A stretch of DNA of 64,000 nt from the NCBI GenBank assembly GCA_963920665.1, contig OY987272.1, positions 17,365,001 to 17,429,000 of the forward strand. The letters run 5' to 3'. Positions within the stretch are counted from its first letter, which is position 1, and every line of letters begins with the position of its first letter. This document shows, one piece after another, positions 3,890-56,571 of this stretch. Source of the stretch: Straminergon stramineum (Eukaryota > Streptophyta > Bryopsida > Hypnales > Calliergonaceae). The position numbers and the translations under genes were made by a program. Below the pieces are notes generated by a model, which ran no database searches, had not been told where the DNA came from, and saw only the letters and a program-made list of their open reading frames with translations.

Positions 3890-4362
3890 TTTACTCTTCC
3901 CCCTCCTGTGTCCTTTGGATCTCAATTCTCGCTCTGTCTTCTACGATTGTTGTTGCCGTGAATCAACGGAAACTACGTTAGTCTTGCTGGAATCTTCTCC
4001 TCTCGAGCATCATCGGTTCTGCATGTCACCTGTCTAGCTTTGCTTGACAATTTCCGTTTCGAAATCTCACAGCTAGGGAGTCATCACTCTACTCCAAGAC
4101 CCAACTGCTGTTGCGATCGCTTCTCGCGTTAGTAGCGCATGCCCATGCCCACGCTCTTCCAAAGCCAAGGACGAGTTAACTATCAATGAATTTGGGTGAG
4201 TGGATGTTGCGGTGGGAGAGTGTCTTGTGAGTGTGGTGAGGGGTGTCGGTAAAGGAATTATATATTGCCTAGCTTGGAGAAATGGGAAGCCAGAGAAGGG
4301 TCTGACATATATAGAATGGTGCGCATGATCCCATATTGTGGTTTTGGCCCATTGATGGCTGG
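3890..4362 (+). promoter_or_regulatory. 5' leader exon and start of leader intron of kinase copy A
   Basis: This stretch aligns with 34064-34490, the leader upstream of the intact kinase in copy B. Shared parts include GGAGTCATCACTCT, TGCGATCGCTTCTCGC and a donor-like GGGTGAGTGGATG at about 4195. The leader continues at 21607 after the large element. The kinase mRNA therefore probably begins here and its first intron now holds about 17 kb of transposon. No start codon is proposed in this part. Confidence 0.65.
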
Positions 4363-4395
4363 GTGATTGCAAGAAACACTTGTCCTATTTGTTGC
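4363..4395. repeat. Left terminal inverted repeat of element 1
   Basis: It starts GTGATTGCAAGAAACAC and continues with CCTATTT and TTGCG blocks that also appear in the right end (complement of 21573-21606). Confidence 0.85.
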
Positions 4396-5661
4396 GTTTT
4401 CGGTTTTCGTTGCGTCAGTCCTATTAGTACTACGAGTACTGCGAGTACTATGAAGGGTACGGGAGATGAAACATGGACCATCGATTGGAATTGAGATGAA
4501 ACACTGGGAAGACACGTGGACGCATGGTAGTGGATGACAATAGGAGATGTCAAGGAAGGATGATGTTTTGGGACAGTCCCTGTCATCCGCAATTTTGTCG
4601 TCTCCTTCAATTTGGCGTTTTGCTTTAATTCGCCAAACACGATTATCTAGGGTTTCCTGCAAAATGCAAAATTCTGTGTTGTCGATGTAGCCCGTGCTCG
4701 ATAATCATCGTGCTTCCAATCGCCTCCCAATTTGACTATTTCATCGCAAGAGTGTTGACCGCGAGGCTTCTAGTGTTGTTCTTACTCGACATTGTGTATC
4801 TGTAGTTGTGGTGTGAAGGGCGGTTCAGACGACTGAGAGACAGTGCATACAATTCACAAAGTTCACGGAGTGGATCAATGTAGAGTTCGTTGATCGGTGG
4901 AGGTTGTCAAGGCGTGCGTCTACTACAGTCGCTGTTGCTCCGAGGGCACTACAAATCATAATTTTGGACGGCTGCGTAAGTCAGTGACACTTTCATACTT
5001 TTGTTTTGAATTCCATTATCAATTCCATTAGGAATCCGGGTTTTGGGTCGTCATCCGTTGGCAGAAGTTCTTGCCCCATCAGCATAGCTTCGTTCTCTCA
5101 TGGGGCTAAAGCATAGCATATTAGGGTTCAGGGTTCAATGACATGAAATGTCGCTTGTGGATGTACTTGTTGATTGCTTTCCTGTCCAATTTCAGCTTTT
5201 CTAGATTAACTATACCATAGGGTTCAAGTTTCACCTGCATTATCAATTCACGCTTGAAATCGATGCACCTGTTGTCACTTAGGGCAGTTTGTGCTAGGGT
5301 GGTGTAGCGCGCCTCGTGATGCAAGTTGTTTCCCGTCCGTCATGCAGCCTTCCCCTTCTTGTTCAATGATCCTTCCTCGTAGGCAGCCACATTCATTTAT
5401 GTTATTGAATTGACCTAGCATTTTTTCTCCCAACACTTGAGCTTCTCTCCTTGCGGGTCCTGCATGTACAGTCGTCATCCCTCTGTGCGGACTGTGTAGT
5501 CCTCTACAACTTCTGCTCCGTCCTACAGACTCCATTTAGTACTACATTAGTACTGTGGCATACATCTAGTCTTACATAAGTACTATAGGAACTACTAAAT
5601 GTGACATTAGGATGCCAATTGCATGTTTTCTGCATGTACACAACTGAAAGCAGTGTGCGCA
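4396..5661. other. Left subterminal region of element 1, non-coding
   Basis: No gene is supported. The overlapping short frames near 4260-4660 are mutual shadows. AGTACT occurs about six times (three times near 4425-4450 and again near 5536-5585), the same hexamer that marks the element's introns. The stretch may hold the promoter of the plus-strand gene that starts at 5662 and transposase binding sites; that is inference. Confidence 0.5.
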
Positions 5662-8600
5662 ATGGTGAAGATGAAGAGTACGACGGCGGATAACCGAGGC
5701 CAACCTCAACCAACTTAGCATGCACGTGTCCAGGACAACAGTGGCGTTGACGACGGCAATGCCATTACGTACGAGAAGAAGGGGAAGAGAAGAACAGCAT
5801 CACGTCCAGTTCAGTTAGACTTGGACAAAGGGGGGCTCGGGGGGGCTTCTGCTGCAGGAGAAGGTGGAAGCAACAACAACAAAAAGGGTGGAAGGACAGG
5901 ACCTAGTCCAAAGAAGAAGCATAAGCGGGTAGCTTCGCCATCCCCATCCTCAGGAAGTAGCGACGACACTTCAGATAGCGAAGCCTTGGAGCAGTAGCCG
6001 AAGAGGAAACCGGCCAAGTGCAAGAAACTCGCCCCCACTGACAGAGAGTACATGGAGGACGATTGCCGCCACCAGCTCAATCTCCTCACCCACCCATCCA
6101 AGCGCCTTCCCACAGCCATGTCGGAAGACATTTTCCACACTTCCTGCAAGCTCCCCCAAGATGGACAGAATCCGCATAGGCTTCGCATGGACAAAGACGT
6201 GCCCCTAGCTGATGTGCAGGCCTTGTTTGGTGAAGAGAAGGGCCGGAATGGTTTCCTTATCACAGAAAGGTTGACTCCCGCTTTGCAGAAAGAGGTGGAG
6301 TCACTATATTGCCGGATTTACTAGAAGACGCACTTCAGCACTCATGTAGGGAAGGAGTTGGCCATGGGGTGGACTCTACAGATACAAGGCCATGCCATCA
6401 ATTGGGCAGGCTTCACTGCTGAAACCAATTTGGGACAGCGGAAACAATATGCCCGACGTGTGAAGACGTGGTTGACAAGGATTGCCGAAGCGCAAAATAG
6501 ACCATTCGCTGAGGTCGTCCAAGAAGAGGCAATTTTGAAGTACTTGGATGTCAAGGACGATAATAAGCCAGACTTACAGCTATTCAGAGATGGATAGGAC
6601 ATTCTTCCCCGGAATGTGAAACCTGAGCAGGTGCATCAACATCTTCCGTCTATGACCGACACTTGCCGGGCTGAAAGGTACGTTCATCCTCTCTTCTCAA
6701 AGTTTGCTACTTCACCCTTACGAACTGGCATGGTCGTTGGCCATGCAGTACTTCAATGCATTCCGATGAACTTTGTGTCACTGCGTCGGGCAATGGATGA
6801 CTACTTCTAGGGTAGTACTACTCAGTGCATTAGTTCATCGTCAATGCCCCTTGTCCTCTCATCTACAGGACTGTATCCCTCGGAGTCCTCATACTACTTT
6901 AGTGCACTAGCGCACGGAATTTTATGGAGTAACGCTCCTGTACTTCTGCACTTGGGGTTGTCCTTCTAGATAAGGCAACTTTGCAAAGTCATGCCAGCTT
7001 CTTCCTTAATGCCTCATCCATGCTTACAGTACTGTCCAGTAGGACTTCTACCACTAACTACCTCTTATCCTTCGTTAATGATGCACTTCTCTTCCACATG
7101 CTGAGTTCGACGCACTACACTTGTGTCCTTCCTGTCCTACGCAATGTACTCCCACGGATTGTCGGTTGTAATCTGTGAGGAAGAAGGGACTCACCGGTAA
7201 TAAAATAGTACTACAGAAATAGTCTTCTATACTAATCATTCCTTGTACTTCCATAACGTACTGTCAACGTCCTCAACGACATGATAATGTGACCACCGCG
7301 GTGCTCACAGGACTAATAACAATCATGGTGCACATATTCAGTACTTAAACCATTCGAACCCGTGCACTGTGGACTTCGTTGGGACGAAGGCAATTGCTCG
7401 TATTCCCTTCAGGACTTTAGTGAGGTCTTCCATTATACTTAGAGTACTACAGTACTACATGTTCCTCGGAACATACATCACTGTACTTGTGTGCACAAAA
7501 GAAGTGATATGAAGTACTCTTAGGACTTCGATGAGTGCTTTGTTGTACTATGAGGAGGTCCGCTTGTCTGAGTACTAACCACCTACTTTACATTCCGTGG
7601 GTCACAGGAAGGCCGAGGTTGAGGACCTGGTGAAATTTGTCACTGGGAACTTGAGGAAACTCGAATGCGATGCTGAGGCACTGCAAACCAAGGTAGATTC
7701 TGTAGCAGAGCAACAACGAGCTAGTCTACTCGGAATTCAGCAAGTGTAAGACACAATGACGGAGATGGCAGTGGAAGGCGACTCCGAATTTCTGAAGCGC
7801 TCACTAGATAGCCTCTCAAAGAAGATGAAGGAATTGACAACCGTGGAAAGTGACATGCGCAGAGCTCTTGATGATGTGACAGGGAAAATATTGGGTACTC
7901 CATCTCGCCTTGCAACACTGGAAGAGCACCTCGAAGACCTAGTGCGGGGTGGAGAAGGAGCAACACTCCACCCCCATCCGCAATCCAATCACGTTGAAGC
8001 GATTTTTAAGGACGTATCCACTACCTTCAGTCTGGAGCTTCAGCGTTGTGCTGCATGCTTGGAGGGCTTCCTTTATACAGATGTGCTTGTCTGTGCTTGT
8101 AGGCATGTGTATCACCCATGGTGCGCGGCATAGTGGTTCAAGGCGACATCCCTATGTGCTCATAGTAATTGCGGCGTGGTTCATCCAATGTGGTTGAAAA
8201 GTTGGGGTTTCCCTACCTCACTTGACAAAGCTAGAAAAACAGAGGAGCCTGCAGTAGTCCAAGGCGTCTCTATTATTCTCGGTTGGGGTCCCTCTACCCA
8301 GAAACACCTACCGGGACATGTCATGGGTACGTGACTGCTTCTCCCTGCACTCAGAGAAGGCTATCTTGTACTTCCAATTCATAGTGTTCAACATAGCAGC
8401 ACCACATAACATTATTTTCCAATCATTAACGCCTTCTCTTTACTGGCTTCAGGACTAGCCCAATAGTACAAATGTAATAGGATGTACAGCAGTAGGACTA
8501 CAGTACTCCCTTCCTTGTTTCCTATATGTAAAAGTACCAGTCCAGGTTTGGACATTGGTACATTGCTGGTGCTCTTCTTGAATGTCTCTCTCTTCTTTCG

Positions 8601-9761
8601 TGCTCATTGCATTCATGAGAACAGAGAAGCAAATCACGACTCACCCTGACCACAAACACTGTGGACTGCATGTGCAAGCCTTTCCTCCATTGGAACTGGG
8701 GCACCTAGCGTGTCCGCTTCTGATATCACATTCACGAAGTGTTTTAGTGGGGACAAGTACTCCTCGTGTGGAAATATCGTTCTTTCAAGCAAACGACTAC
8801 GGGATGACAGTCGTGTAGCAGGCACTCCAGATGGCGATGCCACGTCTAATCCTTTTGAATCTAAATGCTCCGTTGTCTCTTCAGGAATCAAACATAGTCG
8901 TTGCAACACACCTCTTCCACTGTCTTCATTGGATGCACAGGAGTTTCCATTAGGGACTCACATTACTACAAAGAATGTGGAAGACGTTGTTGCAGTTACT
9001 CCTACCTCAGGAGCACCAATTGCCTCACCCTAGTGTCCAACAGTGGAGACTATGCTAGCGGACAAAAAGAAAGACAAAGGTCTTCCTACCCGTGAGTCCT
9101 TAGCATCATCGGCTGCAACAAAGCTCTTTCGAACTTCTTCCCCAGCGGTAGTACAAGGGGAACCCATAGCTCTTCCGGATTCACCAGCAACGGAGGTGGA
9201 CATTTTGAAGCTGCAGTTCAGCTAGAAAGACAAGACGCCCAGTGCTCTGGACCTGGAGTTACAGCAATTGGATTCGTAGTCCCTGGGATTCAGCGACATA
9301 GACAACGGTCATCCCAGTGCACCTATGTGCACTACGGAGTTCCACGTTCCTGTGGTATGTGGCCTTATAATGAAATCTGCTCTTCTCTACCCAATATTTC
9401 AATACAGAGTCGAGTCTTCTGAATTCCGGATGTAGATTGTCATCCTTTTCTGTATTTGAAGACAAAGAAACCCTTTTTGTTGTCGATGTAGGACTTCAGT
9501 GGCTTCTAGAGTAATCCATGTAATTTGATCATCGTGGGTGAATTCAGAAGGTGATGCGCGAAGAAAGTGATAGTGCCAATGAAGATGACCCCTGGGATTT
9601 GATAGTGAAAGAGGATGTTGCACTCATGGGTTCAACTGCCGCTGTTGTGGCCAATGTTTTACCACTAGCGTCGAGAGAACCAAAGGAGAAACCGTCACCA
9701 TCCGTAGAGGCCGACCAGGCTTGCAGCCCAGTGAAAGGCGTCATTAGAAACACCTCGTCAG
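5662..9761 (+). pseudogene. Coiled-coil / RING-like gene of element 1 with in-frame stops
   Basis: I do not recognise the N-terminal family. The reading frame runs from ATG 5662 to a donor GTACGT at 6678 (338 codons), continues in phase from an acceptor at 7607 to a donor at 8327, and then in exons near 8709-9354 and 9548-9761. Exon 1 encodes a basic, Ser/Lys-rich stretch, then a helical domain with TLQIQGHAINWAGFTAETN. Exon 2 gives a coiled coil and then a zinc-binding RING-like cluster: CAAC, then CACRHVYHPWC, WFK, and a later C-x4-C and HPMW. Exon 3 is Ser/Pro-rich. In-frame stops are TAG at 5716, 5995, 6322, 6595, 8131, 9031, 9223 and 9277 and TAA at 7747, with no TGA. The frame is otherwise intact, so decay looks recent. 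By its RING-like end it could be a ubiquitin ligase; it may also be joined to the downstream SET exons. Confidence 0.6.
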
Positions 9762-10062
9762 GTACGCCACGCAACAAGAATGACTAGTCCTAATACATGT
9801 GGAGTCATTTATGAAAGTAACCGTATTGGCCGACATTTTAGTTAGTAATAAGGACTCCTAGTACTCTCAATACTTGCAAGCAGTATACATGATGTACTTG
9901 CATGTACTATTTCAGTACTAGGGAGCACTCACATGAGTACTTTCTGTATGGCTGTATGTATTCTAATGTTGACCGTATATTGTCTTTGCGGTCACAATGC
10001 ACATTATGCGCGCTACGTTTGAAGTGATACACCTTCCATTCCTGTGGACTATGCTGTGCTAG

Positions 10063-10207
10063 GTAAAGGAAGAAGTCGTCGTGCGTCGAAGTCTAGCAAG
10101 TCGCCTGATGAATTCCGCAGGCAGTTGCGACCTCGGCCAGCTAGGGGTTCCCCAATTTCGATGTCTAGTCCTCCTTCGATAGGTCCTGCAAAAACTCCAA
10201 GTTCCAG
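10063..10207 (+). other. Small basic Ser/Arg/Pro-rich exon, element 1
   Basis: An open stretch after an acceptor-like GCTAG encodes KGRSRRASKSSKSPDEFRRQ and then a Pro/Ser-rich tail, ending at a donor-like GTGGGT. It has no recognisable domain. It could be the linker between the RING-like gene and the SET exons or the N-terminal region of the methyltransferase. The following 10210-10530 contains a short inverted repeat (GACTGCCTCC and its complement) and no clear exon. Confidence 0.35.
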
Positions 10208-10529
10208 AGAGGTGGGTAAAAAGTGACACTATTGCGCGACTGCAAGCACAAGGCACTGTGGTGGACTGTGCGTTCAAAGGGGGGACTGCCTCCGCCACTT
10301 TTGAGAGATGCTGGCCCGGAGCGCAGGAATTTCAAGCAGCAATGAGTGTCCGCTTTCCATGTAGTTCTTAGGCCGCATCTCAGAAGTAAAAGGAGGCAGT
10401 CCAGGGAAGGCCTGTGGGCCTGTGGATAGTAGTGGGTGCAGCACTTCGCCCTTTTCTTGGTATCCATGTACTTCATGCTTATGCAATATACAGTTTCGGA
10501 TGGCTTTGTGTTTGTTGTATAATGTGTTG

Positions 10530-12259
10530 GTCTCAACAGGAGGCACGGTCAATGACTCTATGTGATTTGTCACGTGGCATGGAAAAGGTCCCTATACTAT
10601 TTGCGGGATCCTGTACACTACTTTCCGTGTCGCCCTTGGACACGGACTATACATATGTTTGCAGTCCCATATTGCATCAATCAGTGAGTGTTGAAGCTCT
10701 AGCTACAGCATATTATGTACATATGTTTCCCTTATGCACTTCTGGAAGGATCTCTAGTCTTCCCGGCGGAGTGACTTCACCGTGGGAGGAGAATGCAGGG
10801 TCAGCATACTTGGATGACGGTACCCTTCACCCGCGGTACATCAAGCAGGTGAGTGGGGGCTTCTCCTTGCCTATCCCTCATGTCATTACTTCCTAGGACT
10901 ACAGAGTTGTATAGTACTCATTAGTTGTGCCATGCAGTATAGTACGTGAAATCCGTGTAGTCCTATAGTACTCATTTGCTCTGGCATAGAGTACAATGAA
11001 ATGAAGATCCATCCGGAAACTGAACCCGTTGTCCTATTTTCCTAACTAGTAGCAAGTGCCAGTTCTAGATGACCCGCACTTTGGCGAATGGAGGTCTAGT
11101 TCGTTGTCATGGGCAAAATGCCTGCCCTAAATTGCAGGGAGGTCGCTGCGCAGGGCATGTGCAACGACAGTACATTAGAGAATGCTTCCGTGTGTGTGGT
11201 TGCGGCCTACCCTGCAAGAACAAAGTGGTGCAAAGAGGTGTTACACACAAACTAGAGGTACGCAAGGTTCCTTTGCTTGCTTGTGCATGCTCAAGATGGA
11301 AACAATGAAAACGTGGCTGAGAAATGATTAGCAATGGTGAGGGCCTCGAAGGGAACTTGAATTCGGAAAGATTTGAAGTAGTTGTGTTAGTGGAGGACGG
11401 GCATGAAATCTGCACTTGCAATTTTGTTCAACGAATGACATGCAAACATCTCTCATTTTCAGCGACAGAACATATTGGATGTTCCAGGTAACTTGCTTTC
11501 CAGATTCGTGCATGATAACCTGTGCACGCACAATGTAATTATGTTTTCAGTCATCGATGCCGTGGGATGGTAGCAGGTTTTCTCCGTCTCTGCTACGAAG
11601 GGTTGGGGCATTCGTACACTACAACGGCTCAGAGGTGGTTCTTTTGTGTTTGAATACGGCGGAGAAATAGTGACAAATGCAGAGCTTCTGGCTCGTAAAA
11701 TATGTTAGAAGTATTGTGTTGCTCTAGATGCGCATTGGCAGTCTGAGATGAACCAGGGAGATGACTCACTGCTGACCATTGATGCATCCACAATCACAAA
11801 CGTCGCTAGGTGGCTGAACCACAGGTGCATCGTTGATTCTATATTAATTTTACTTTGGACTTCCCGATACAACCGTTGAATAGCTTCAGGGGCTTCTGTT
11901 GAAGGAATTCAACTTTTTTGTTTGATTTTGCCATTGCAGATGTGGCGATGCAAACCTGATGGATATTCCAGTCTCAGTGGAGCACAGCATCTCCACACTA
12001 TACCATGTAAGTACTACATGTGATTGTAGATAGTGTTTGGTTACATAGTATGTAACCGCTGTCCACCATGCAGGTCTGTATCATGTAATAAGTTGTACCA
12101 TCCTTGTTAATGCAGGTGGCCTATTTTACCGTCCGGGAAGTAGCGGAGGGGGAGGAATTAACATGGGATTATGGATGCCGATTTCAGAGAAAAGATGGAA
12201 GACATGTCCCATTCAAATGTACTTGCGGTAGTGACCTGTGTAGAGCGCCTGCGGATTAG
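10530..12259 (+). pseudogene. SUVR4-like SET-domain histone lysine methyltransferase
   Basis: The exons give a plant SUVR-type pre-SET/SET/post-SET protein in the correct order. About 10530-10683 has DLSRGMEKVPI, the usual pre-SET entry. 10758-10848 has AYLDDGTLHPRYI. 11066-11257 carries the Cys-rich pre-SET end with CFRVCGCGLPCKNKVVQRG and HKLE. 11577-11824 starts the SET domain with ATKGWGIRTLQ, EYGGEIV and WLNHR. 11940-12006 has CGDANL. 12116-12259 has EELTWDYG and the post-SET motif CTCGSDLC. All junctions have GT/AG. Family members methylate histone H3 lysine 9; Arabidopsis SUVR4 acts at transposons. TAG at 11706 lies in the SET domain, in a poorly conserved loop. The NHSC motif reads NHRC, as in SUVR4. 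The gene lies inside a transposon and converges on its transposase. The N-terminal limit is uncertain. Confidence 0.8.
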
Positions 12260-12695
12260 GACTATCCTATGTACATCCCAGGGGACTATTGTACCCTCAA
12301 ACATTACATAGTGAGCATTTCATTTTACCAAATAGGACGATTCGTAGTACTCATAATACAACATAGTAGTGATTTTCTGTGAATGACTAACTTCAATACA
12401 GGCGAATAATTGTGGTCCAGCAAAGGAAGCTTCTGAGAGCAACAATAAAAACATCGCATGTAATTACATCTGTAGCAATGAAAACAAAGATCACTGTAGA
12501 TACAAGTGTGGACGGCTCAAGTAATGCCTGCACACTATTTAATAAAATCGAGGCCTTCTTATATTGACTTCTCAGGACTGTTTTGAAGAAGAGAATTGCA
12601 TGCGGCAATGCATTGCACTTGCAAGTGTGCCGGCAAACTGTCATATTCTTATACCCTACTAGCGCTATGTTATGAGTCTAAGAAGTTTTGTTCCA
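12260..12695 (+). other. Possible Cys-rich C-terminal extension beyond the TAG of the SET gene
   Basis: After TAG 12257 the frame reads on as DYPMYIPGDYCTLKHY. Two further open, Cys-rich stretches follow with splice-like borders: about 12402-12520 (NNCGPAKEASESNN, CNYICSNENKDHCRYKCGR) and about 12576-12695 (DCFEEENCMRQC), ending at TGA just before 12696. One TAG (about 12658) lies inside. If real, the original protein was longer and its end comes within about 20 bases of the convergent transposase stop. Coding potential is modest and this may be chance. Confidence 0.3.
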
Positions 12696-15302
12696 TGAGA
12701 CATCAAGTTCCGTCATTTATGCATCCATTTCTTCTAGGGCTGTGTTGATGACATCAACAGTCTCATCTGAGAGAGTATACACTGCATCTCTCCCCTTCAC
12801 TCGGTGGTTTCTAGGAATCATTTGGAACTTACAAGCCAAGACTGAGTCGGCGTCCACGAAGGCCTCCTTGGAATTACGTAAGAACACATAGTTGTTAGCA
12901 TTTCTCCGTCCCCATTTCTGATAGTATGTTGCGGAAATGACGAAGTCTCCCGCTTGAAAATGCCCCCCCCATACGTAGTCCAAATCTTCTTCGACAATGT
13001 GTTTTGGCCTCTGACATTGTAAAATGTAGAATGACACCCCTTCGTCGTTATTTTCAGTGGCCGGGATAGCGAAATTGTCTCCTGCCTGCACTAAGTCACC
13101 CATGCTTTCATCGTTGTATTCGTACTCCCAACTATCATCGTCATCCTCTAGGACCATGAGTGCAGCTGCGAATTCTACATTTCGTGGTTGTATCTTAGTG
13201 ACCTTCCAAGCCTTTATGTAGGATTTCTTCTCGCAATGACTGAAATCTTCCTCCACACAAGGGCCGCAGAAGCATGACAACGGCCGTAGTAACAGTTTCG
13301 TGGGATCGTGCTTATCTGGAGCAAAGATGGAGTGTAGTTTTGAGGATCCAGGGATTGGATCACAAGATTGGGAATTCCCACGATCAACCTCATGTAGCCG
13401 TACATGATGGAAATATCAATATGACCTGCATGCACGTGAGAAGGAGTCAGTCAGTAACGAATGCACTATTCTTTACTGTGAAACTACAAGAATGCGTAGA
13501 ATTGCATAATTGTCAACAACAGCCTTTGAGGAAGATGGAGCATCTCATAGTACACGTACAGATCCTTCGCTAAGGCAATGAGTACTATGCGGCACCCATA
13601 GCTTACTTTACAAAGACTACTGCGCCATTCAATACTATGCAGTATATAGAGTTCATTGTAAGAAAACTATTGTGCTAGAGAATATCATGAGGTATACATA
13701 GCTTAATTTAAGAGGCATTTTTGGGAAACAGAGGAAGCTAGTACTGCATATATAATGTGAGACAGCAATAGCTTCTGAATAGACGTGTAAAACAATGGAG
13801 AAAAGCAAAGCATGGAATGAGGAACCTCATGCCCCTGTGTCGATTAGGAACTGGTCCTGCCATAGTAGCATTAAGGAACTGAACACAGTCTTGTGCATTT
13901 TGGAGGCGTCTATGAGGATTGACGAGTTGCTCATTGCGAAGAGACCTTTTGATGACTGCCCCAGCACTGTCCCATTCACCTTTTCCATAGCCCGTCCCAT
14001 AATAGTTCCAAAGCATATTGCAGCCGCCCGTAAGGGCTCGATATCTACATCCACTTAGAAGAAACACAATGTGAGTGAAGTGTAGGGTACTTGACCTTGT
14101 CAGTGATTTCTGGGAATGGGTTCATATATGAACGTGGCATGAACCATTATACATACCGGACGATGCCTTGGAAATTAGCTATACATATAGGACTCAAATT
14201 GTACTATGAGTACTACTGAGGACTGCGCAGAGCAATAGGACATGGTAAACGAGTTCCTTCCGACTTTTTTTTGAACACAAAGCATTATAGAGGGAAGCAT
14301 CACCTGGCTATAAAGTACATGGCCTTGGCACTCTTGAACTGACCTATACATCCATCACTAAAGACGTAGTGAATGGATGGGGTCAGTCCTTTTGATTGCA
14401 TCCACCTCTAGTGGAGCATGAAGCAATGTTGCGCAAAGTCCGTATCGTGCATTTTGTCATCGGAGATGTAGTAGTGCGTCTCTCTCATCATTTGCACCCC
14501 CCCTTGCCCCACATCTTCCCCAACATCTGGTGAGTACATCACTTGCACAAGAATAGTGATTTGGTTAGAATGGTAGTACATGGACTGAATCTCATTTTGA
14601 GGTTCGAATGTGTAATTCTCAGAGAAATTGATGTGCGTCAAGACAGCGCTTGCTTGCAAGCACACTTGGAGGAGCTTGGCTTGCTGCGTTTGCCACTTGG
14701 CTATGAAATTATGGCGAATGAATTGCTGAAGTGAAGGACAGAAGAAGTCGAGGAACTTAGAAAATGAAGTCGTCCTCAGCACCTTTTTGATGCGCTTCTT
14801 TGGCTGACCATCCGATGATGTGCCGACAACCTCGTATTGAAACTGCTTCCATTGAATGGTGCGAGTAGCGTCGATCACCCTTTCTCGTGGACAAATTGTC
14901 GCGAGCCGTAATCTTAGAAGTCACCATGTTAGTATTTAAGGGTGTATAAGTATATAGAATTTTTCAAAATTCTTAATAGGCAAAAAGGATTAGAACCCTC
15001 TTAGCCTTAACATCTCCCTAACACTGAACGAATGCTCCAGGTAATCCATAATGGAATCTAGGACGGATCCGGATTCTGGAAACCCGGATAGCGACAGCCT
15101 ACTATCTAGACTTCCGGTCTAGAAATAGGGACCCATTACGGGTGAATGGTCGGTATTTTGACAGGTACTTAACCTCGCCACTCCTATTTGTTTTCCCTCT
15201 TTCTCCACAACTATTTTGTGTGTGCATAGCTGAGTGAAAGAGTGGTGAGATTAGTACTCGGGTGAGAGGTGATAGTGTGTTCAGATTTTGGAGTGATTTA
15301 AG

Positions 15303-17288
15303 ATGGCGGAGGGAGATATCTGGAAGACTTTGGTCACCGGCCGGATGGTTTGTCCAACCATTCCGAAAAGGCTGAGAGACAGATCCCAGCTAGAGGATGA
15401 CCTTAGTGAGATAGGGTATGTCGGTTTGTTCATGCGGCCATGGACTGTAAAGAACGACCAGATGATTCAGGAACTCATAGTAGGTGCTTCCAACCAATAT
15501 GAGTTGACGGTGAGAGGAAGGCCTCAAACTTGGACTGATGAAGTCTGGGCTAAGGTTTATGGATTTCCGAAGAAGGGATCCAGTTTAGTGTCCCGGACCG
15601 ACAAGTTTACGGTCGGGAAGTTCAAGAACGCTGCCCATTCTAAGGAAGGGTATGCGATTAGTGACTACCTAGATCTACGACATAGACATGTCCTAGAGTT
15701 CCTGATCCCTATCCTGTATCTGGAAAAGCCTACCCGGGTTACGATTACGGTAGCAAACACCATATTTGGTGCTTTTGAGGGTAGACTAGTCAGTTGGGGC
15801 AAGGTGATTGCATCCGTAGTCGCCAAGCTTGCCGCCAACGTAGGAAAGGGAAAGACCAGCCCCATAGGGCCGTATCTTTTCCATATGTACCACCACGCAG
15901 AGCTTCTCAGCGATGCAGAAATGGTGGAGTATAATACCAGAGCGACCATCCTTCAATACGGCTTGACGGAAGAAGTGACAGTTGAGCAGCCGCCGATGGA
16001 AGAAGAGGAGGATCCGGAAGAAGACGAGCAACCCTTGGAGCGGAGGCACCGAAAGTCGACGGATCCGACATCGCAGGGAAAGCTTCCGACTCAACAGAGG
16101 ATCTTGGAAGAGGAGGAAGGAAGCATATCCGGGTTCTTCAAAACCAGATTCAATTGGGTACTCCAAGCTCAAGAGTAACATGAGAGCCTAACGGATCTGC
16201 TCAGAAGGATAGGCCGGGAGCTAAAGACGGAACCGGAAGACATCCTTGACGCGTTGAAGAAACTTCCAAATCTGGAAGTCCTCAAGCGGAAGGACAGGCA
16301 AATCGTAGCCCTGGAAAAGGAGAAAGCGGATCTTCAGGCAAGACTCAGTTGGGCGCAAGGGGAGATGGTTGCAACGAAGCAAAGGGAGAAGGAAGCCCTC
16401 CAACTGCTGAAGAACTTATCCGGTTTAGTAGACAAGCCGGCCGACATGGTGATGAAGGCGGCTCTAACCCAAAGCCGGTTGACTGAGGAAGGGCACCTCA
16501 CCGGATCCAAGGTCATCCGGATACTCGTGGACTTCTCCTCCCGGATGGAGCTCACACTCAAGGAGATGAGGCAGCTGCTTGGACAGATCGACCCCGACCA
16601 AGTAATGAACTTCTCCAACTTTCCAGAGATCCATTTCGACACGGAGACACCCGTCAAGTTCACCACCTCAATGCCGCTACCTTCAAAACCGGAAGCCCCG
16701 CGAGAGACTCTCCAGTACTCTACGGAACCCTTCTCGAAGCAACTGGAGAAAACAATCCGGGGGAGCATGAAGTCAGCACCTAAGCCAAGCATGCAGCCGG
16801 ATACAAGACGGGAGTTGGCGCCTCCAGAGATTATGGTTTCTCCACCCGTCCCAATGTTCAACCTTCCGGAAAAGGAGCTGCTGCTGACACCGTACACCCA
16901 AGCCCGTGGCCAACTGATAGAGCGGATCGGGGGGTTGTTGAATCCGGCCCGGTCTCATCCAAAGGAGTTCGAGCATATGGTGGAGGAGCAACAGCAACCA
17001 AGGAAGGAAATCGAGCCTATTGTGTTGGATGAGACATATCTAGGCGAGGAGAACGAGAGGGAGATAACTTAGATTGAGAAATCTGAGGAGGAAGAGTACC
17101 GAACCGGATCAGAGGACGACGACGAAGAAGTGGAATACTCTCCTCTGGAAATTTGGAAGATACAAACCCGGGCGGCGTTACAGATGACCCCCATCAAGGC
17201 CACCCCGAAGGCAACACCAAAGGCATCTCTACGAACACTAGCGAGTCAAGGCGGGAGCAGCTAGAAGAAAGCGCAGAAGGCGAAGTAG
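15303..17288 (+). pseudogene. Single long ORF of the nested insertion, gag-like or plant transposon protein
   Basis: One continuous frame starts at ATG 15303 and is broken only by TAA 16176, TAG 17070 and TAG 17262, with a last TAG at 17286. The first 220 residues form a compact domain with VYGFPKKG and HVLEFLIPILYLEKP. They are reminiscent of the N-terminal domain found in many plant retrotransposon-derived proteins, but I cannot name it firmly. An acidic Glu-rich linker follows, then a coiled coil (about 16260-16420, ALEKEKADLQARL) and a Pro-rich, acidic tail. No protease, reverse transcriptase or integrase motif is visible. A structural, gag-like role is plausible. Confidence 0.5.
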
Positions 17289-18356
17289 TTAGTTTTTAGG
17301 CAGTTAGTATTTTGAACTTTAATTCAGATCTAAATTTCCAGGGGTGGGATCGGGTTCTGGATTTGTAGGATCTCACTTTTCCGGATTTCTCGGAGTGTTT
17401 GTGAGTGGTCACCTGGATTTCCAGGTGGCCTTTTTGGCTTTTTGGCTTTGGATGTTTTTGAAGTTTTTAAGTGTGAGGTAGGTTTGTTGCCTCTCATTCC
17501 ATCCTAGCATTATAGTTTTTACCTTGTTATCCTTTCTTTAATCTAAGCCACCAAGTGGACCCTCAGGGATTGATCTGTCGTATATCCAGCTTCCTTGCAT
17601 TTCCTTGTGAGTGTGTAAAGTGTTAGAACGGAGGAGGAAAGGAGGAATCCGGATCTGAGGAGACTTGGAGCTAAGTTGAGTGGAACATTTGTGACAAAGT
17701 CTAGACTAGTGATTTTGGTCTTGAGCACGTGTCTTTAAACTCCTGGAACGGGAATGTGATTAGGAGTGGTGTGGGTGCAAATCCGGAATGCCAAGGAGGG
17801 TTCCGTGCGGAGATAAGCAACCGCCAATGGAAGAAACCCCATATCACTTACCTGAAGGTCAGCCAAACCCTAGGATCTATCTAGTGAACAACTTACAATC
17901 CCCATCTGGGTTCCGGTTTCTATTGGTCTATCATTGTAGTAGAGAAGACTTGTTACAGATCTGTGTGACCTACCTCCCGGGTTGGCCATCCGGAAGGTTG
18001 TGAGAGTCTTTTTGGTCAATCCAGTACAGTAGTTGGTCTAAGCGTGTGTTTTGTTGTTTTGAGAGAGAAGAGAGAGTGAGAAATACGAGTGGTGAGTCCC
18101 TACCCCTCTACACAATCAAAAGCGGACCCTCCGAGGGTAAAACAGAGGTACCAAAAAAACCAGTGTTTGTGAGTGAAGAGACGGATCCAGATTCCGGATT
18201 AGAGTGGATTCGGATTGGGTTCCGGAACGGTTGTGATTTGGAAAGAGAGAGAAGAGGTTAAGAGAGACCTTAAGTTGGTAGAACAGATAACCTAGGCTTG
18301 CAACAACATACTAGACGATATTTCGAGTTAGTTTACACGGTTGGGTGTTGTAGATG
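17289..18356. other. 3' part of nested insertion, no gene
   Basis: Downstream of the ORF I see only short frames. GATCCGGATT-type motifs recur (near 17345, 17647, 18182), as in the 5' part near 15065, but there is no clear long direct repeat. Near 18290 the sequence CCTAGGCTTGCAACAACA may be close to the element end. Confidence 0.4.
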
Positions 18357-20751
18357 GTATTTACCGCACGCTACGCGTACGACACAAACGTCAAAGAATT
18401 GCAGACCACATCTACTGCAAGCTCCTAGCAAGCATTTAGGGTGATGGAATTCCTCATCCTCCGTCTTTGGACACATGAGCGCTTCCTATAGTGCGGTGAC
18501 AGAAGGAAATCGACTTCGTCCAACATTACAGACTCCTTCTTGGTTGGTGTCACAAACAGTGCACTAGCAATCACAGAGGAAGATGACATGCGCCCCTCTA
18601 GAAGGATCGCGGAAGGCGTTCAAGGCCTCTAGAAGATAAAGCACTTGAATGTGGTATCGACAGCAGCAGACATTTCGCTCTTTGCACTTGATAACGAAAA
18701 AAGGACGGAGGTTGATGAAAGCCCGATGCTGGATGGCACACTCTAGGTGCTTCTCAATGAATCGTGTGTATAACTGCATCTGGAAGACATTCACAGAATA
18801 GAAGTTAGGGATGTCAACTTCAACTCACATGAAACTGTGAGCCCAAGAAGTAGTTCTGTCACAGTACTTCTAAAGTACTAGTGTCACTGCATTAAGTACT
18901 CAAATAAGCGCTACAAGGTCATTGATAGTACTATATAGTATTCGCATGAAAAGAAAGTAATATTCAGCTCACTCATGTTGTACAGAGGAGGATTGCAGTA
19001 GTACCTCTCAAAGACAGCACATGACGCTCAAGAGTTATGGGGATTCGAAGAGGATAGGCAGTGGATGACCCGTGTACTCCAGAGGACTCAGTGATCATGG
19101 AATAGTGATTCGGAAGGACTAAATCATTGCAAAGCACGACAAGCTCATGCCGTCCAAGTGCGTAAGAAGTAACTAGAAGTACATTACGCAATAAGGCATA
19201 AGTGAACTTAATACTACAATGTACTCCTCAGGAACCAGAAAGGCAGAGAAAGGAGTGCAAGCGGTCTATGTAGTACAGTGTCATCCACTCATGCATCACT
19301 GCCATCTTAGGACTGCATATGCAGTCCAAAGAGGACATCGGCTGTAGCAAAGCATTAGGAGGTGCCACTTCGGCATGTACAGGGTACTCCGCAAGCAATG
19401 CCTAGTAATGTTCATCAAGTCATGTCGTCAGTGACGTGTATGAATGACTACCTCACGGAAAGCAAGTACTACTTACTAAGAGGCGTGCAGTCATTTGCGC
19501 GTTGCCACTGGCTGAAAGGACTCTCGCTTACTTCAAAAGTACTGTCAGCCATGTATATAATACATTATGCACTATAGAGGAGTATGACGTTGTAATCTGG
19601 AAAGGCTGGGCAAACTACGAAAATCAAAGGAGGTCCTATGGGTAAGATGGGGAACTATATAATAGTGAGGACATGTCCTGAAAGTACCTCATGCGTGGAA
19701 GACTAGGTACATATTGGGTATAGGAAGACAACTAAGTACAGTTTCGTCATGAAACGAGGTGTAGAAAGGGATGATGCAGGATGTCCGAGGACTAAGTTAC
19801 TCGGTAATAACCTTGGGTCAATTGCTGATGTGGTGTATGTTAAACTGTTCTGCACATAATCATGAGCACTCAAAATGTCTACATTGCGGAGGATGGCATA
19901 ATCCTCCACATATGCAAGTTGAATTGTAACTACGAAACACACTACATTGAACTTTGAGGAACATGAAAGTGAATGGGAAAAGAGGAACCTGGCTTTCCAA
20001 GAGAAGATGAGCTACATGTGTATCATACAAACTCCATCCGAGGCGTTTCTTGCGAACTAACTCGAGTTTCTTCTGTCCACCACTGCAGCACAAGAGCCTT
20101 GACAGCGTCGTCAATCCCCCCTTCTTGTTTCTTCCGTGCTAGGACTTGGTATCAGGTAGACATAGACTCTGTAGTTGATCGGAGGTGCTCCACAACTGCC
20201 ACCAAATTCTCCTTTCGTGTACCAAGAATGTTGTGGAAGTTCGTGAGGTCTGAATCTAATTCGCCGACCACTGCTTCCAGGATGGCACGCTTCCGAGCCA
20301 ACATTCCAGAAGAATGTGGGATCTTCAGGGCCTGCAAATCGGCACGAATGTTCTGCAGTATTTCCCTTTGGGCCCGTGCTTCTTCAAGAATAGGGTAGTA
20401 ATCAGGAAGTAAAGGACGAACATGGCGACTACTGAAAACCTTATCGAGAACTTCCGCTCTGAAAGCAGGATTCCGAATTCGTGCCAGTAATCTCGTCAGA
20501 GAACTCGCGATTTGTTGAGCACTTCTCCAGACACTTGTCCAGTGCCTCCTGGAGCCCCATCAAAGTGTAATAGCGTCGTTTCCATCTACCGGCTCCCCTG
20601 CTTCTACACCTCGTCGTTGCGTGGTCGCACGGTTCGCTCGGTTGTGCCGTTGACGATCCCTCCAACAACTTCGTTGATGTTCCAACGCAACAGCCAGCAG
20701 TCGCTGTCGAGTCTGCGGACTTGGACAACCGTCACGACGGACACCATCCAT

Positions 20752-21572
20752 GCCAGCATTTCAAATCCAAGTATCTGCACACGTAATCCAGAACAACAAC
20801 ATACCCTAAACCCACCTACAAAAAATTGCAGAGAACCCATGGAAATCATTCCGCCTTCCCATGACAGCTTGGGGGACCGAAGGTAGACAGCAGTGTGCAA
20901 CCGAAGCTAGCAGTAGCATTCAACCGCTGGAACGCGTAGCCACCAAAAACTCAGCCATAAAGACGTCGCTGTGAAAGCAGTCCACGTTGGCAAATTTGCA
21001 GGCGTAGTGGGCCCCGCCCAATACTAAGGAGTCCTACACTATACCCTGGACTACTATTTTCTGATAGTGTCTTTGATTTACCCTAGAAAATGAAGCTGGA
21101 ACATTCCCATTTTTGAAAAAGAGTTAATGATTTTGGAAAAATAAATTTAAAAGTGGCCATTATTGACAACTGAGAGAACTACTGAATGGAGCAAGAAGAA
21201 ATTGGAAAACATTTTGTATTACTTAGAAAATGTTGTGTAAACGTCACACACATCAGAGCAATGCCAAAGGCAATTGAAACACGATTTTACAAATCCCTCT
21301 CCAAAAAAGTTGTAATTCCACTACATCAGCTCACTGTCCAGTTTTGACGATGTAATCCTTCAGAAAAGGTACTCGATAGTACTAAAAACTATCAAAACTG
21401 CAAATGTGACATGTAAATGAAATTCAATTTCACACCCTAAAATAATTTTGAAAAATTCAGATTAATTTGTGTTCATTCATCAGTGCTAGAGGAACCTACA
21501 TTTTGAATTTCATGTTCATTCAATCATTTCTCCAATAGTTATGGCACAAAACAACCACCGCATTGAAAGTGT
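20752..21572. other. Right subterminal region of element 1, non-coding
   Basis: No supported gene. This is probably the promoter side of the transposase, whose first recognised codon is at 20751. It includes an AT-rich stretch from about 21060 and one AGTACT near 21380. Confidence 0.5.
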
Positions 21573-21606
21573 GACGCAAAATAGGTTAGGTGTTTCTTGC
21601 AATCAC
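21573..21606. repeat. Right terminal inverted repeat of element 1
   Basis: It ends GTGTTTCTTGCAATCAC, the exact complement of the left end at 4363. The kinase leader resumes directly after it and matches copy B from about 34487 onward. Confidence 0.85.
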
Positions 21607-22024
21607 TTGGCTTCAATTAAGCGGTGCAGTGTTGGGTTCTAATTATATTACACTCTTTCCCTTGGACAGGTGACCTTGGAGAGATGGGAGGCCAGAGCAG
21701 GGTATGAGATAGAGAGCATCCCGATTGCATTGTGGGTTATAACTTTATTACACTCTTTCTATTAAACAAAAAGAAACGTGATGCATCTGTGCTGTTAATT
21801 AATGGAATTAGCTTTGTGTTCAGCTTCGGGCTGTGGAACAGCTCCATTTGTGTGGAGTGTGAGGACGTTGTGTTCTCTTAAGTTTAGCTTGGAGCCTGTT
21901 CTTTTGTTTGGTGGAGTGGTTGCAAGGTTTTGAATGTTGAAATCTTGGGTGTGAAAGTTTAAGGCCAAATCGTCATGGCTGTGTGAATGTAGTGCCTAGG
22001 AGAGGAGCTTGAATACTTGGCGAT

Positions 22025-23344
22025 ATGCAAAATTGTGCACGACGATTGACTGGTGGGGTATTTGAGGAGACAATCATGTTAGCCATTGGTCCTTCCGTCA
22101 CACCAGATGTAACCTCCAATTTCCACATCGCTGTTGAACAATGTAACTTGTCTTCCTTGGATGAGGTCGCACTTGGAGATCGTAGTGGTGCAAGATCCTC
22201 CTTGGAACCCAAGTCTGAGTACTTCTCTGCACGCGTGGAGGAGATGCTGCGAACTAAGAGCCAATTCTCTTCAATTGTGGAGCATGAGATTGAGCATTCA
22301 AAGGTGCATTGGAGCAAAGTGAATGGCCCTTCCAACACCTCAAAAGTGAGTGGCCTTTCTGATTCCTCAGAAGACGACGACGACGATGAAGAAGTGAATC
22401 GAGAGTATTATGAAGCAGTGGATCGAGAGAATGAGGAAGTCTTTGCAGAATTGCTGAACGACCCGCAATGGAGGCATTAGAATCTTGGATCTTTTTTCAT
22501 CTAGTGGCCGCCTAGCTTGAGGTTGGGTCAGAAGATTGCGGAAGGTGGACAAGCAAAAATCTTGGAAGTTATGGACATTGATGGCACCATAGAGCCTCTA
22601 ATGCTACTGAAGGTGTTCAAGAAAGGATCACGCCTATCAGACCTCAGAAAACAATGGCCTAGTGGAATCCTTCGACAAGAAGTTCTATGTATTGTAGGTG
22701 GTGGATATCTCTTGGACGATGGGAGGTTTGCGTTTGGGATGGTGAAGTGTTGGGGTGACTTATGCAAGCTCATTGATCAAGCCATGCAAGAGAAGAACAA
22801 CCAAGGTCCACCATTTCCATATCAGTGGAGTGGACAAACCTTGAATGTTAAGTATATTATGAGGAAAATTGCTTTTGAAATAGACAAGTTACACAAGCAA
22901 GGCATCATTCATAGAGACTTGAAAGCTACCAATATCCTTCTTCTTGTGCCTAGTAAATATGATTTTGCAATGCTTACAGTAGCAGACTTTGAATGTTGGA
23001 TTGGAGTTATGGGAACTGGATTTTGGAGGGCACCAGAGATATTGTTGGCTTTGAAGAATAGAAGTGCGATTAACTTCCTAGAGAAAGCGGATGTATATAG
23101 CTATGGTATGACTTGCTTTGAAATTGTAACTGGTCGCTTGCCATTTGAAGGTGAATTCGAGCCTTGGAGTAGTGCTAGCAAAGATTTTGTTATAGAAGGT
23201 GGGAGGCCTAATCTTCCTAGTGATTTAGATGTGACATTGAAGGATTTGATTGAGAGATGTTGGAATCCAATTCCTAATGAGAGACCTAGTTTTTCAAAAG
23301 TCATTGAAGTACTTGATTCAACTCTTGATATGTTATCATTGTAA
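22025..23344 (+). pseudogene. Protein kinase copy A, frame broken by two TAG codons
   Basis: ATG 22025 is at the position matching the start of the intact copy B gene. The same frame runs to TAA 23342, broken only by TAG at 22478 and 22502. Residues 1-151 form an acidic N-terminal region with EHEIEHSKVHW and SGLSDSSEDDDDDEE. The kinase domain follows: EGGQAKI (degenerate Gly loop), LLKVFKKG (Lys), HRDLKATNILL (catalytic loop), ADFEC in place of DFG, GTGFWRAPEIL (activation segment), DVYSYGMTCFEIVTGRLPFE and ERCWNPIPNERPSF. It belongs with plant TKL-like kinases. Copy B begins MGNC but this copy begins MQNC, so the myristoylation glycine is absent. Its leader intron holds element 1. Both TAGs could derive from Gln codons; without suppression, the product would lack the kinase domain. 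Confidence 0.85.
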
Positions 23345-34072: not shown

Positions 34073-34888
34073 TAGTGTCCTTTGCCTCTCAAGTCTCTCT
34101 CTTTCTTCTGCAAATCCTGTTGCCTAGCACCAACGTAAACCATTCCTACTGCAATCTTCCTCACTCGAACATCTTCAGTTCTGTCACCCGTCTTTGCGCT
34201 TGCGTTTCCGTTTTGAAATCTCGGAGGGAGTCATCACTCTGCTCCAAGACCAGCTGCTGCGATCGCTTCTCGCTTCAGCAGCGCATGCCCGCGCTCATCC
34301 AAGGCGAAGGACGAGTCGACTGTCAGCGAATTCGGGTGAGTGGATGTTGCCCTGGGAGAGTATCTTGTGATTGTGGTGAGGGGGTTTGAGTAACAGAGAA
34401 TTTATGGGTTAGCTTGGAGAGGTAGGAGGCCAGAGAAGGGTCTGAGATAGAATGGTGAGTGTCCCACAGTGTGGTTTTGGTTCATTGAGGGCTTCGATTG
34501 GACTGTGTGGGTTATGATTTTGTTACTCTCTTTCCATCGGGTAGGGTACCCTGGAGAGATGGAGGCCAGAGCAGGATAAGAGACAGAGAGTGTTGCGATT
34601 GCATTATGGGTTATAATTTGATCTTGCTCTTTCTATTAAACGAAAGGAAACTTAACGCAGCTGCGTTGTTGGTGAAGTTAGCTTTCAGTTCAACTTGAGG
34701 CCCTGGGAAAACACCATTTGCGTAGAGCGTGAGTCAGGGTGCTGTGTTTCCTTCAGTTTAGGGAGCCTTGTGCTTTCGTTCGTAGGAGTGTTGGGAGGGT
34801 TTTGAATCTTGGGTGTCCAAGTTTAATGCCAAATCGTCATGGTTGTGTGAATGCAGTGCTTGGGAGAGGAGCTTGAATACTTGGCGAT
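34060..34888 (+). other. 5' leader of kinase B with probable leader intron
   Basis: It aligns with 3890-4360 and then 21607-22024 in copy A. A donor-like GGGTGAGTGG lies near 34337. The stretch at about 34485-34495 is the empty site corresponding to the insertion point of element 1. Conservation of the whole leader between copies supports transcription. Confidence 0.55.
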
Positions 34889-36028
34889 ATGGGGAATTGT
34901 TTACTACGATGGTGGACTGGTGGTGAACCAACGTCTGAGTACTTCTCTCCACGCATAGCGGAGATGATGCGGAGCAGGAGCGAATACCCTTCGGCTGTGG
35001 AGCATGAGATAGAGCATTCGAGGGTGCATTGGACCGAAGGGAGGGGCCTTCCCGATTCCTCAGAAGACAACAATTTTGAAGAAGAGGATCGAGAGAACAA
35101 GGAAGTCTTCAGAGAATTGATGAACGACCCGCAATGGAAGCAGCACGAATTCGGAGATTTTTTCATGGAGTGGTCACCTCTGTGGAATTTGAGTAGTCAA
35201 ATGATTGCGGAAGGTGGTCAAGCACAAATCTTTGAAGTTACGGTCGTAGATGGGAATGTGGAATCTAAGTTTCTTTTGAAGGTGTTCAAGAGAGGATCAC
35301 GCATATCAGATCTCAGAAAACAATGGCCTTGTGGAATCCTTCGACGAGAAGTTCTAAGTGTTGCAACTTTCGGATTTTTGACGGATGATGGAAGGTTTGG
35401 GTTTGGGATGTTGAAATGTTGGGGTGACTTGCGCAAGCTCATTGACCAAGCCATGCAAGAGAAGAACAACCGAAGTCCACCATTTCCATATGAGTGGAGT
35501 GGAGTGATTTGGCATGCCAAACATGTCATGTTTCGTATTGCTTTTCATATGGAAATGTTACACAAGAAAGGCATCATTCATCGAGACTTGAAATCTGACA
35601 ATATTCTTTTTCATGCAAATGATAAGGTTTTAGATCCCAATACTGTTACATTGACCGAAATGTTGAGTGACCGTTCAATATTTGTAGCAGACTTTGAGTG
35701 CTCGATGGAAGTTCTTGGAACTGGATATTGGCGGGCACCAGAGATATTGTTGGCATCTTTGGATGGAAGTGCAGTTGACTTCTCAGAGAAAGGGGATGTG
35801 TATGCCTTTGGTATGACCTGCTTTGAAATTGTAACTGGTCGCTTGCCATTTGAAGGTGAATTGGAGCCTTGGAGGAGAGCTCACAAGGTTCTTGTTATAA
35901 AAGGTCGAAGGCCTAAACTTCCTAGTGATTTGGATGTAGCATTGAAGAATTTGATTGAGAGATGTTGGAATCCAATTCCAAATGAGAGACCTAGTTTTTC
36001 AGAAATTTTAGAAGTATTGAAACCTTAA
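34889..36028 (+). CDS. Protein kinase copy B, intact, TKL-like with DFE motif
   Basis: This is an uninterrupted 379-residue frame in one exon. It begins MGNC, a candidate N-myristoylation and palmitoylation site that would anchor the protein at a membrane. An acidic region follows (EHEIEHSRVHW, DSSEDNNFEEED). The kinase domain starts near residue 110: EGGQAQI replaces the canonical Gly-rich loop, FLLKVFKRG has the ATP-binding Lys, HRDLKSDNILF is the catalytic loop, and GTGYWRAPEIL the activation segment. DVYAFGMTCFEIVTGRLPFE and ERCWNPIPNERPSF end the domain. The magnesium-binding DFG motif reads DFE (ADFEC), also in copy A, so the change predates the duplication. Catalytic Asp and Lys remain. 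Substrate and pathway are unknown. It could be an active but atypical kinase or a scaffold. Confidence 0.85.
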   Translation: MGNCLLRWWTGGEPTSEYFSPRIAEMMRSRSEYPSAVEHEIEHSRVHWTEGRGLPDSSEDNNFEEEDRENKEVFRELMNDPQWKQHEFGDFFMEWSPLWNLSSQMIAEGGQAQIFEVTVVDGNVESKFLLKVFKRGSRISDLRKQWPCGILRREVLSVATFGFLTDDGRFGFGMLKCWGDLRKLIDQAMQEKNNRSPPFPYEWSGVIWHAKHVMFRIAFHMEMLHKKGIIHRDLKSDNILFHANDKVLDPNTVTLTEMLSDRSIFVADFECSMEVLGTGYWRAPEILLASLDGSAVDFSEKGDVYAFGMTCFEIVTGRLPFEGELEPWRRAHKVLVIKGRRPKLPSDLDVALKNLIERCWNPIPNERPSFSEILEVLKP

Positions 36029-43144: not shown

Positions 43145-43559
43145 AGAATTGCCTCCTTTAGTGACCCTACTTGCCCCCTTCCTTCTTGTTGGTTCTTCCT
43201 ATGTGACTTTTGAGTCTAATTGAAAATGTTGTTCCTCAGACCTTGCAGATCCACTCTACAAGCACATCAACAATTGACCATTAATTAGTACAGGATTTAA
43301 CCACTACTAAGGTTAGCAAATGCAGAACAACTACATCCATGATAAAATTCGTATGTGCACATGCCTTAGGGATGACTATGCTGGCTTATACATACATTAT
43401 TAGAGTAATTGCATATGCATTTTTTAGAATATGAGTTCCCCTTTGTACAAGTTTCCAAATACAATATCCCATTGTCATATAAAACAAAATATGACTAGGC
43501 CTTGTTACGTACATTTAAATGTGACTAACTCCAATTATGTATTGTTACATACAACTTAT

Positions 43560-56139: not shown

Positions 56140-56571
56140 AAAAGATGTTGTAATATGACTCCAGGAAGTCAGTTTTTTACATTACTTTGTTATTCATCTT
56201 TTGTCAAATATGATGATATGGTGTCATGCAAGAAATTTTCATCATGGTCATATTTTTTCACACAAGTACAAAGTTTACACTGATGTTCCCTTATAAAACT
56301 CCAAACTAGAATGTGAAATATGTACATGAGGTCCTTAGTAAGGAATGACATATATGAAGTTTAGATTGGTGCCACTTCAGAAGAGGAGGTAGAAATTGTA
56401 TAGTACATGTGATGAAAATCATTGGGAGAAGTAGTCTCCAAATAAAGATGATGAACCACTAATACAAAGTGCGGTATAGTAGTATGTGAAGGCACATGAT
56501 ATTGACAAGTTTGAATGATGAATATTACACTTATTGTGTATTTGTGTACACTAATAAATCGACCATTGCAG

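Follow-up and report, generated by a model that had tools for sequence, protein, structure and literature searches.

To our knowledge, few transposon-encoded systems that act on silencing have been described. Plant Vandal elements encode one such system, according to PMC12730594, which also reports that genes for SET histone methyltransferases have been taken up by HarbingerS and MuDR transposons of Phytophthora (oomycetes; citing Kojima and Jurka 2014) and that TET/JBP genes have been taken up by 11 lineages of fungal DNA transposons. In Arabidopsis, methylation of lysine 9 of histone H3 (H3K9) silences invasive and repetitive sequences, and the methyltransferase SUVR4, a ubiquitin-binding protein, brings H3K9me1 to higher states in vitro (PMC7218100). 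Elements of the Sola superfamily, which occur in the moss Physcomitrella, have a transposase with three catalytic aspartates (DDD), 4-bp target-site duplications, lengths of up to more than 15 kb and terminal inverted repeats (TIRs) from 11 bp (PMC10741241, PMC9033089). The present analysis concerns a 64,000-nucleotide stretch of the Straminergon stramineum genome (contig OY987272.1, positions 17,365,001 to 17,429,000), hereafter the window, whose positions 4363-21606 are one approximately 17-kb cut-and-paste TIR DNA transposon; the insertion is observed and the cut-and-paste mode is assigned from the family. The explanation preferred here, with a probability of roughly 70%, is that of a dead DDD transposon with a SUVR4-like and a RING-like cargo gene.

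Compared by description only, as given in PMC12730594, the HarbingerS and MuDR elements likewise are cut-and-paste DNA transposons carrying a SET histone methyltransferase gene. They belong to named superfamilies, whereas a Pfam scan (E 0.1) of the 38 transposase relatives found by protein search returned no transposase family; the SET gene here, moreover, contains introns and belongs to the plant SUVR4 type, and it is accompanied by a RING-like gene. The fungal TET/JBP transposons also carry an enzyme acting on epigenetic marks, proposed to help them escape silencing, but theirs oxidises methylcytosine, whereas the gene found here is histone methyltransferase-like (PMC12730594). With Sola, again by description only, the element shares a DDD transposase (a trait which is not Sola-specific), size and TIRs. 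Its candidate duplication, GGCT or TGGCT, may or may not have the 4 bp of Sola, and the Sola2 duplications described in PMC3627910 are AT-rich, unlike GGCT. In the literature searched, SET or RING genes were not seen on any Sola element. Nor was the combination of a DDD transposase, an intron-bearing SUVR-type SET gene and a RING-like gene found in that literature, with Repbase and most subscription papers outside it and the searches partly aimed elsewhere. KDZ, IS3EU and Lanisha were also encountered there. The view of the initial annotation that no element with this gene set has been described agrees with these searches for the combination; it does not extend to SET-bearing DNA transposons as such, which are already cited in PMC12730594.

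The decisive evidence that 4363-21606 is an inserted mobile element comes from the empty site in a paralogous kinase-gene segment (Table 1). The left flank was aligned to the paralog at 34217-34493, with the match ending in GGCT at 4360, and the match of the right flank to the paralog (from 34490) begins at GGCT, 21609; GGCT is thus present once in the paralogous segment and once on each side of the element. Because the paralog holds a single GGCT, the target-site duplication is 4 or 5 bp long (GGCT or TGGCT, where the paralog has GGGCT), and 1 or 2 bases separate it from the exact inverted ends. The sequence GTGATTGCAAGAAACAC has two exact copies in the window, inverted, at 4363-4379 and 21590-21606, and no further copies with up to 3 mismatches were found in the 64 kb. 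The inverted ends alone are not decisive, since inverted 17-mers are not rare in the window: exact ones more than 1 kb apart form 13 separate blocks, the terminal pair of the element being one of the 13, and eight blocks near 1550-2441 have partners at 25 kb or 36 kb, places with other listed inverted repeats. The inverted ends, the precise empty site with its duplication and an RNase H-fold transposase (the last seen via its relatives) identify a TIR DNA transposon. In these respects the initial annotation was right: the matched termini, the empty site, at whose single GGCT both flanks resume, and the mobile DNA element deduced from them were all borne out. The paralogous segments lie approximately 12.7 kb apart and contain protein-kinase genes at 22013-23344 and 34877-36028 (plus strand); the copy beside the transposon is broken by a stop and the other is open.

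The transposase gene is located on the minus strand, has several exons and is convergent with the SET gene, as had been proposed; the DDE type assigned to it was not upheld, the catalytic pattern of the relatives being D-D-D. In 15 of the 38 relatives, in which spacing was measured, 40-47 residues separate the second and third catalytic acids, a figure that depends on the choice of the third acid; the same dependence applies to the result that no C(2)C lies between these two acids in an alignment of six relatives. The relative P0037 has an aberrant first catalytic spacing of 35. A predicted model of the relative P0001 contains an integrase-type RNase H core, recognised by re-examining the Foldseek list with VIA-align, and the Metnase transposase domain was among the fold matches of a transposase relative. 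When the transposase was compared by Foldseek with PDB and viral models, no match reached E <=0.001. The gene is assigned to the DDD transposases with an integrase fold on the basis of homology and of the predicted fold of P0001. Scattered Pfam matches among the relatives include DUF6597 in two (best E 2.4e-4), DUF4326 in one (6.7e-4), and CAMSAP_CKK (0.0054) and DUF7869 (0.043) as further single matches; nothing turned up in the literature on DUF7869. No relatives were found in viral contigs (queries P0001, P0008, A2, P0013 and A5) or in prokaryote genomes (query A5) by scans that need short matching peptides, which distant relatives could escape.

Seven of the 11 exons contain in-frame stops, 13 in total (10 TAG, 1 TAA and 2 TGA). 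Eight of them are situated in parts aligned to relatives, and all three genes are affected; the other five, which have no aligned relative, may be artefacts of the exon model: RING exon 2 and the first transposase exon hold two each, and one falls near the beginning of the first SET exon. The first catalytic Asp of the transposase reads Asn in this copy, and the gene is split by a later 3.5-kb insertion, 14897-18384, with its own broken plus-strand open reading frame (ORF) of about 660 codons at 15297-17290. The two stop-free pieces of this ORF had no Pfam match at E 0.05, and direct repeats between the two halves of the insert were not found beyond 20 nt. Because of the 13 stops, the lost Asp and the insert, the element copy is dead and cannot move itself, a point missed by the initial annotation. 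The high share of TAG among the stops (10 of 13) and the long frames that open under translation table 6 could also be read as a recoded genetic code, with TAG and TAA translated as amino acids and the genes intact. This reading is very improbable and was rejected because the residues of the relatives at the aligned stops vary from site to site, so that no single reassignment fits; in addition, two stops are TGA, the catalytic Asp is lost as well, and one of the paralogous kinase genes stays open for 383 codons under the standard code.

The SET gene comprises four exons, 11060-12256, encoding the second half of the pre-SET region, the SET domain and the post-SET region. The Pfam SET match has an E-value of 4.3e-14 (53.2 bits versus a cut-off of 22.4), and the NHxC and ELxxDYG-type motifs of a SUVR4-type SET domain are kept, with one in-frame stop in the core. 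Pfam Pre-SET was not reported for the 218-residue piece, which is without the first half of the cysteine cluster. A stretch further upstream, 10537-10848, weakly resembles the first half of a SUVR pre-SET; 1 of 500 shuffles reached the same score against P0042, and 16 of 500 did so against P0044, which is no more than suggestive, and most of the pre-SET cysteines are missing. The SUVR4-like pre-SET/SET/post-SET gene of the initial annotation is retained for its SET, post-SET and second pre-SET portions, the first half being weakly matched.

The named homologs of the SET protein are plant proteins from Corchorus, Eutrema and Euphorbia, the last being the only match named SUVR4 (49%), with 49-50% identity over 85% of the query. 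Plant SUVR4-type proteins share with it NHRC.DANL- and EELTWDYG-like motifs and the post-SET cysteines, and differ in their pre-SET N-terminal half, which is barely recognisable in the element copy. The search scored 126 candidates with lengths of 0.55-1.75 times the 218-residue query, a limit of about 380 residues above which longer SUVR proteins, including those of the host, could not appear; within this range, none of the SUVR proteins found comes close to identity with the SET gene product. On a tree of the core exon (7 rows, 83 residues of the window, no starred branch), the element SET groups with two fragments, P0045 and P0046, while the three plant proteins fall outside this group; support is moderate (92/88), and equally good clustering arose in 47 of 500 shuffles of the labels. 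This grouping fits an older, element-type SET lineage without proving it. The translations of both fragments appear to enter introns on either side of this 83-codon exon, and these translated strings suggest that introns are common to the element, P0045 and P0046. For the RING intron and each of the three SET introns, GT-AG edges fit at, or no more than a few bases from, the exon boundaries as drawn. Since the SET gene has introns, its source was probably genomic DNA rather than a processed copy. The short-peptide scan of viral contigs found no SET relatives (query P0046).

In the RING-like gene, the weak zf-RING_2 match (E 7.4e-4; 20.2 bits, under the cut-off of 27.3) covers residues 485-522 of the joined translation, and the RING-H2-like finger contains a stop and has its last cysteine pair spaced C-x4-C. 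Weaker Pfam matches are Gasdermin_C, zf-RING_Vps41 and baeRF_family3. This decayed copy lies below the curated domain cut-off by which a RING ubiquitin ligase is recognised. The front exon of the gene is conserved in three relatives. These relatives, P0039 (59%), P0040 and P0041, obtained by scoring the 7988 candidates sharing most words, span 49-59% identity and have one strongly conserved block; none had a Pfam match at E 0.1, and the short-peptide scan of prokaryote genomes found no relatives of P0039. The predicted model of the front domain has a pLDDT of 37, too poor for a fold reading. The RING and SET genes are on the same strand, 0.4-2.7 kb apart according to the exon model chosen, with a GTACGT donor after the RING exon; they could be one gene, a candidate fusion.

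Table 1. Features of the transposon at 4363-21606 and of the corresponding empty site (window coordinates).
Feature	Position	Strand	Observations
Left candidate target-site duplication	4357..4360		GGCT (or TGGCT from 4356); flank alignment to empty paralogous site
Left terminal inverted repeat	4363..4390	+	17 nt exact, 28 nt at 89%
RING-like gene exon 1, conserved domain without Pfam name	5662..6678	+	4 in-frame stops; 201/339 identical to P0039
RING-like gene exon 2	7609..8328	+	2 in-frame stops; weak RING match at about 8044-8157; no relative aligned
Candidate upstream exons of SET gene or RING-SET fusion	8709..10850	+	Open stretches
SET gene, second half of pre-SET cysteine cluster	11060..11257	+	1 stop at third codon, outside relative-matched part; aligned to plant SUVR-type proteins
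SET core, first part	11577..11825	+	1 in-frame stop; Pfam SET; 72% identity to P0045
SET gene, short 22-codon exon	11941..12006	+	13/22 identical to P0044 and to P0047
SET end (ELTWDYG) and post-SET (CTCGSDLC)	12116..12256	+	Pfam SET and alignments
Transposase last exon, Cys-containing C-terminal region	12720..13415	-	0 stops; 120/228 identical to P0001
Transposase exon, third catalytic acid (WDSAGAVIKR)	13831..14043	-	0 stops; 43/65 identical to P0001
Transposase exon, catalytic positions 1 (Asn) and 2 (SDG)	14303..14905	-	1 in-frame stop; 152/198 identical to P0008; high end overlaps insert by 9 bases as drawn
Later insertion splitting transposase gene	14897..18384		TGTCG..CGACA ends; near-identical 5-bp flanks CAAAT/CAAAC
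Transposase exon, CCCRYH cysteine motif	18375..18773	-	2 in-frame stops; 101/130 identical to P0008; low end overlaps insert by 10 bases as drawn
Candidate first transposase exon	20029..20751	-	2 in-frame TGA; placed by reading frame alone, no relative aligned
Right terminal inverted repeat	21579..21606	-	Partner of left arm, 17 nt exact, 28 nt at 89%
Right candidate target-site duplication	21609..21612		GGCT; flank alignment to empty paralogous site
Empty site in paralogous kinase segment	34490..34493		Single GGCT; flank alignment

According to the preferred explanation, an old 17-kb TIR transposon, now dead, inserted into one copy of a duplicated kinase-gene segment, cut and pasted, as the family suggests, by its own DDD integrase-fold transposase. 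It would have carried a gene for a SUVR4-like histone lysine methyltransferase, captured with its introns as genomic DNA, together with a RING-like gene with a front domain also conserved in P0039, P0040 and P0041. The likeliest role of both cargo genes would be an action on chromatin or silencing factors at the copies of the element itself: the SET enzyme may have methylated H3K9, or competed with host SUVR proteins, and the RING-like protein may have supplied ubiquitin or removed a silencing factor. Possible ends are H3K9 methylation of its own copies that limits damage, the silencing of rivals or of host defence genes, and the disturbance of host SUVR complexes. The title of the source paper on Arabidopsis SUVR4 places the H3K9 activity on transposon chromatin. 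A plant lineage of large DDD transposons in which a SUVR-type H3K9 methyltransferase and a RING-like partner are standing genes, writing or blocking the silencing mark, is a tentative reading, well short of even odds, and possibly includes, by analogy, a ubiquitin-assisted step like that of SUVR4 in vitro. If true, an element that combines a SUVR-type enzyme with a protein like a ubiquitin ligase would provide a natural test case for SUVR/ubiquitin action on transposon chromatin, and epigenetic cargo on DNA transposons would be extended from fungi (TET/JBP) and oomycetes (SET) to a plant.

Whether the parts belong together was addressed by composition. The motifs AGTACT, GTACTA and TAGTAC occur at 4.1-7.6 per kb in all four element parts, whereas the later insert has 0.86 and the host flanks have 0.67-0.97. 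They concentrate in noncoding DNA: the 5' part has 10 per kb, the RING intron 18, the gap preceding the SET core 24, and three introns of the transposase gene 9.6-12. A Markov score is element-like for the RING intron, the RING-SET gap, one SET intron and the pre-SET gap, and host-like for all host and all insert pieces. Because of this common noncoding signature, the RING part and the transposase are taken to share a history. The richness of the introns and spacers of 4363-21606, the insert excepted, in these motifs is unlike the flanks. Several points weigh against the preferred explanation. The SET exons and introns (11060-12256) carry just 1.7 of the motifs per kb, three of the four SET intron sets have a negative, host-like Markov score, and for the SET core the composition test favours neither side or is mildly opposed; the copy is a pseudo-element; and a DNA transposon with a SET or other epigenetic enzyme is an already known kind. 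A chromatin role of some kind for the SET and RING cargo, its direction left unchosen, is by analogy with the families a plausible suggestion that falls a little short of an even chance. The initial interpretation, in which an element encoding both proteins could manage its own chromatin state or counter host silencing, stands in part: a mobile element was found whose SET gene is no near-copy of the SUVR proteins returned by the length-limited search, but this copy is dead and SET-carrying DNA transposons had been described.

The unlike composition of the SET core, and the presence of at least one later insertion already nested inside the element, would also fit a composite in which RING and SET came from another element or a host segment nested with the transposon, the transposase part alone being the transposon proper. 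This is improbable: a single empty site accounts for all 17 kb, the AGTACT signature is seen in the 5' part and the RING intron, ahead of the SET core and again in the introns of the transposase gene, and the terminal pair alone among nine listed inverted-repeat pairs brackets RING and SET, around which duplications were not searched for. Pack-MULEs and CACTA elements pick up host genes or gene fragments, and an ordinary DNA transposon may likewise have acquired SUVR and RING genes, or parts of them, from its host on a single occasion, as passengers that were never useful to it. Such capture is ordinary for plant MULE and CACTA elements (PMC10741241); the cargo genes here have introns and are broken, and the SET region, with three of four intron sets host-like, has a core without the motif signature of the element. 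The passenger reading must nevertheless be regarded as unlikely, given that the SET protein is just 49-50% identical to the plant proteins that the length-limited search found, that it clusters with two further SET fragments, that the SET active-site motifs are retained, and that the RING-gene front exon has relatives at 49-59%. A role of the SET enzyme in repair of the excision break instead of silencing is modelled on SETMAR/Metnase, a SET-transposase fusion for which a repair role has been proposed. There, too, a SET domain is partnered with a transposase, SETMAR (3bo5, 1.3e-22) is among the solved-structure matches of the SET protein, and Metnase recurs in the fold matches mentioned above. 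SETMAR/Metnase, however, is a host fusion gene with a mariner transposase, whereas SET and transposase here are two separate convergent genes inside a transposon, and the SET is nearer to EHMT2 (1.4e-29) than to SETMAR; the repair role is accordingly rated as quite improbable, slightly more so than the composite.

Elsewhere in the window, 56515-60385 (plus strand) contains CACTA-type genes in successive ORFs, encoding Transposase_21/tnp2 (2.6e-68), DUF4218 and DUF4216, a set typical of plants that, like the plant homologs of the SET gene, indicates a plant host. No convincing CACTA ends were found for this stretch, the best pair matching at 15/25 with no 3-bp duplication. Just upstream of the tnp2 gene lies a second, different SET-domain gene (55546-56139, plus strand; Pfam SET 1.9e-8), which had no match in PDB at E 0.01; should this gene belong to the CACTA element, the window would hold a second pairing of a SET gene with a transposon. 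An ORF at 42497-43198 (minus strand) has an NLI-interacting-factor-like phosphatase domain (NIF, 2.3e-8). Tandem arrays at 40701-41114, 43584-44136 and 61131-61648 consist of 11- and 30-bp units, and AAATATGACT-like units are common to two of them.

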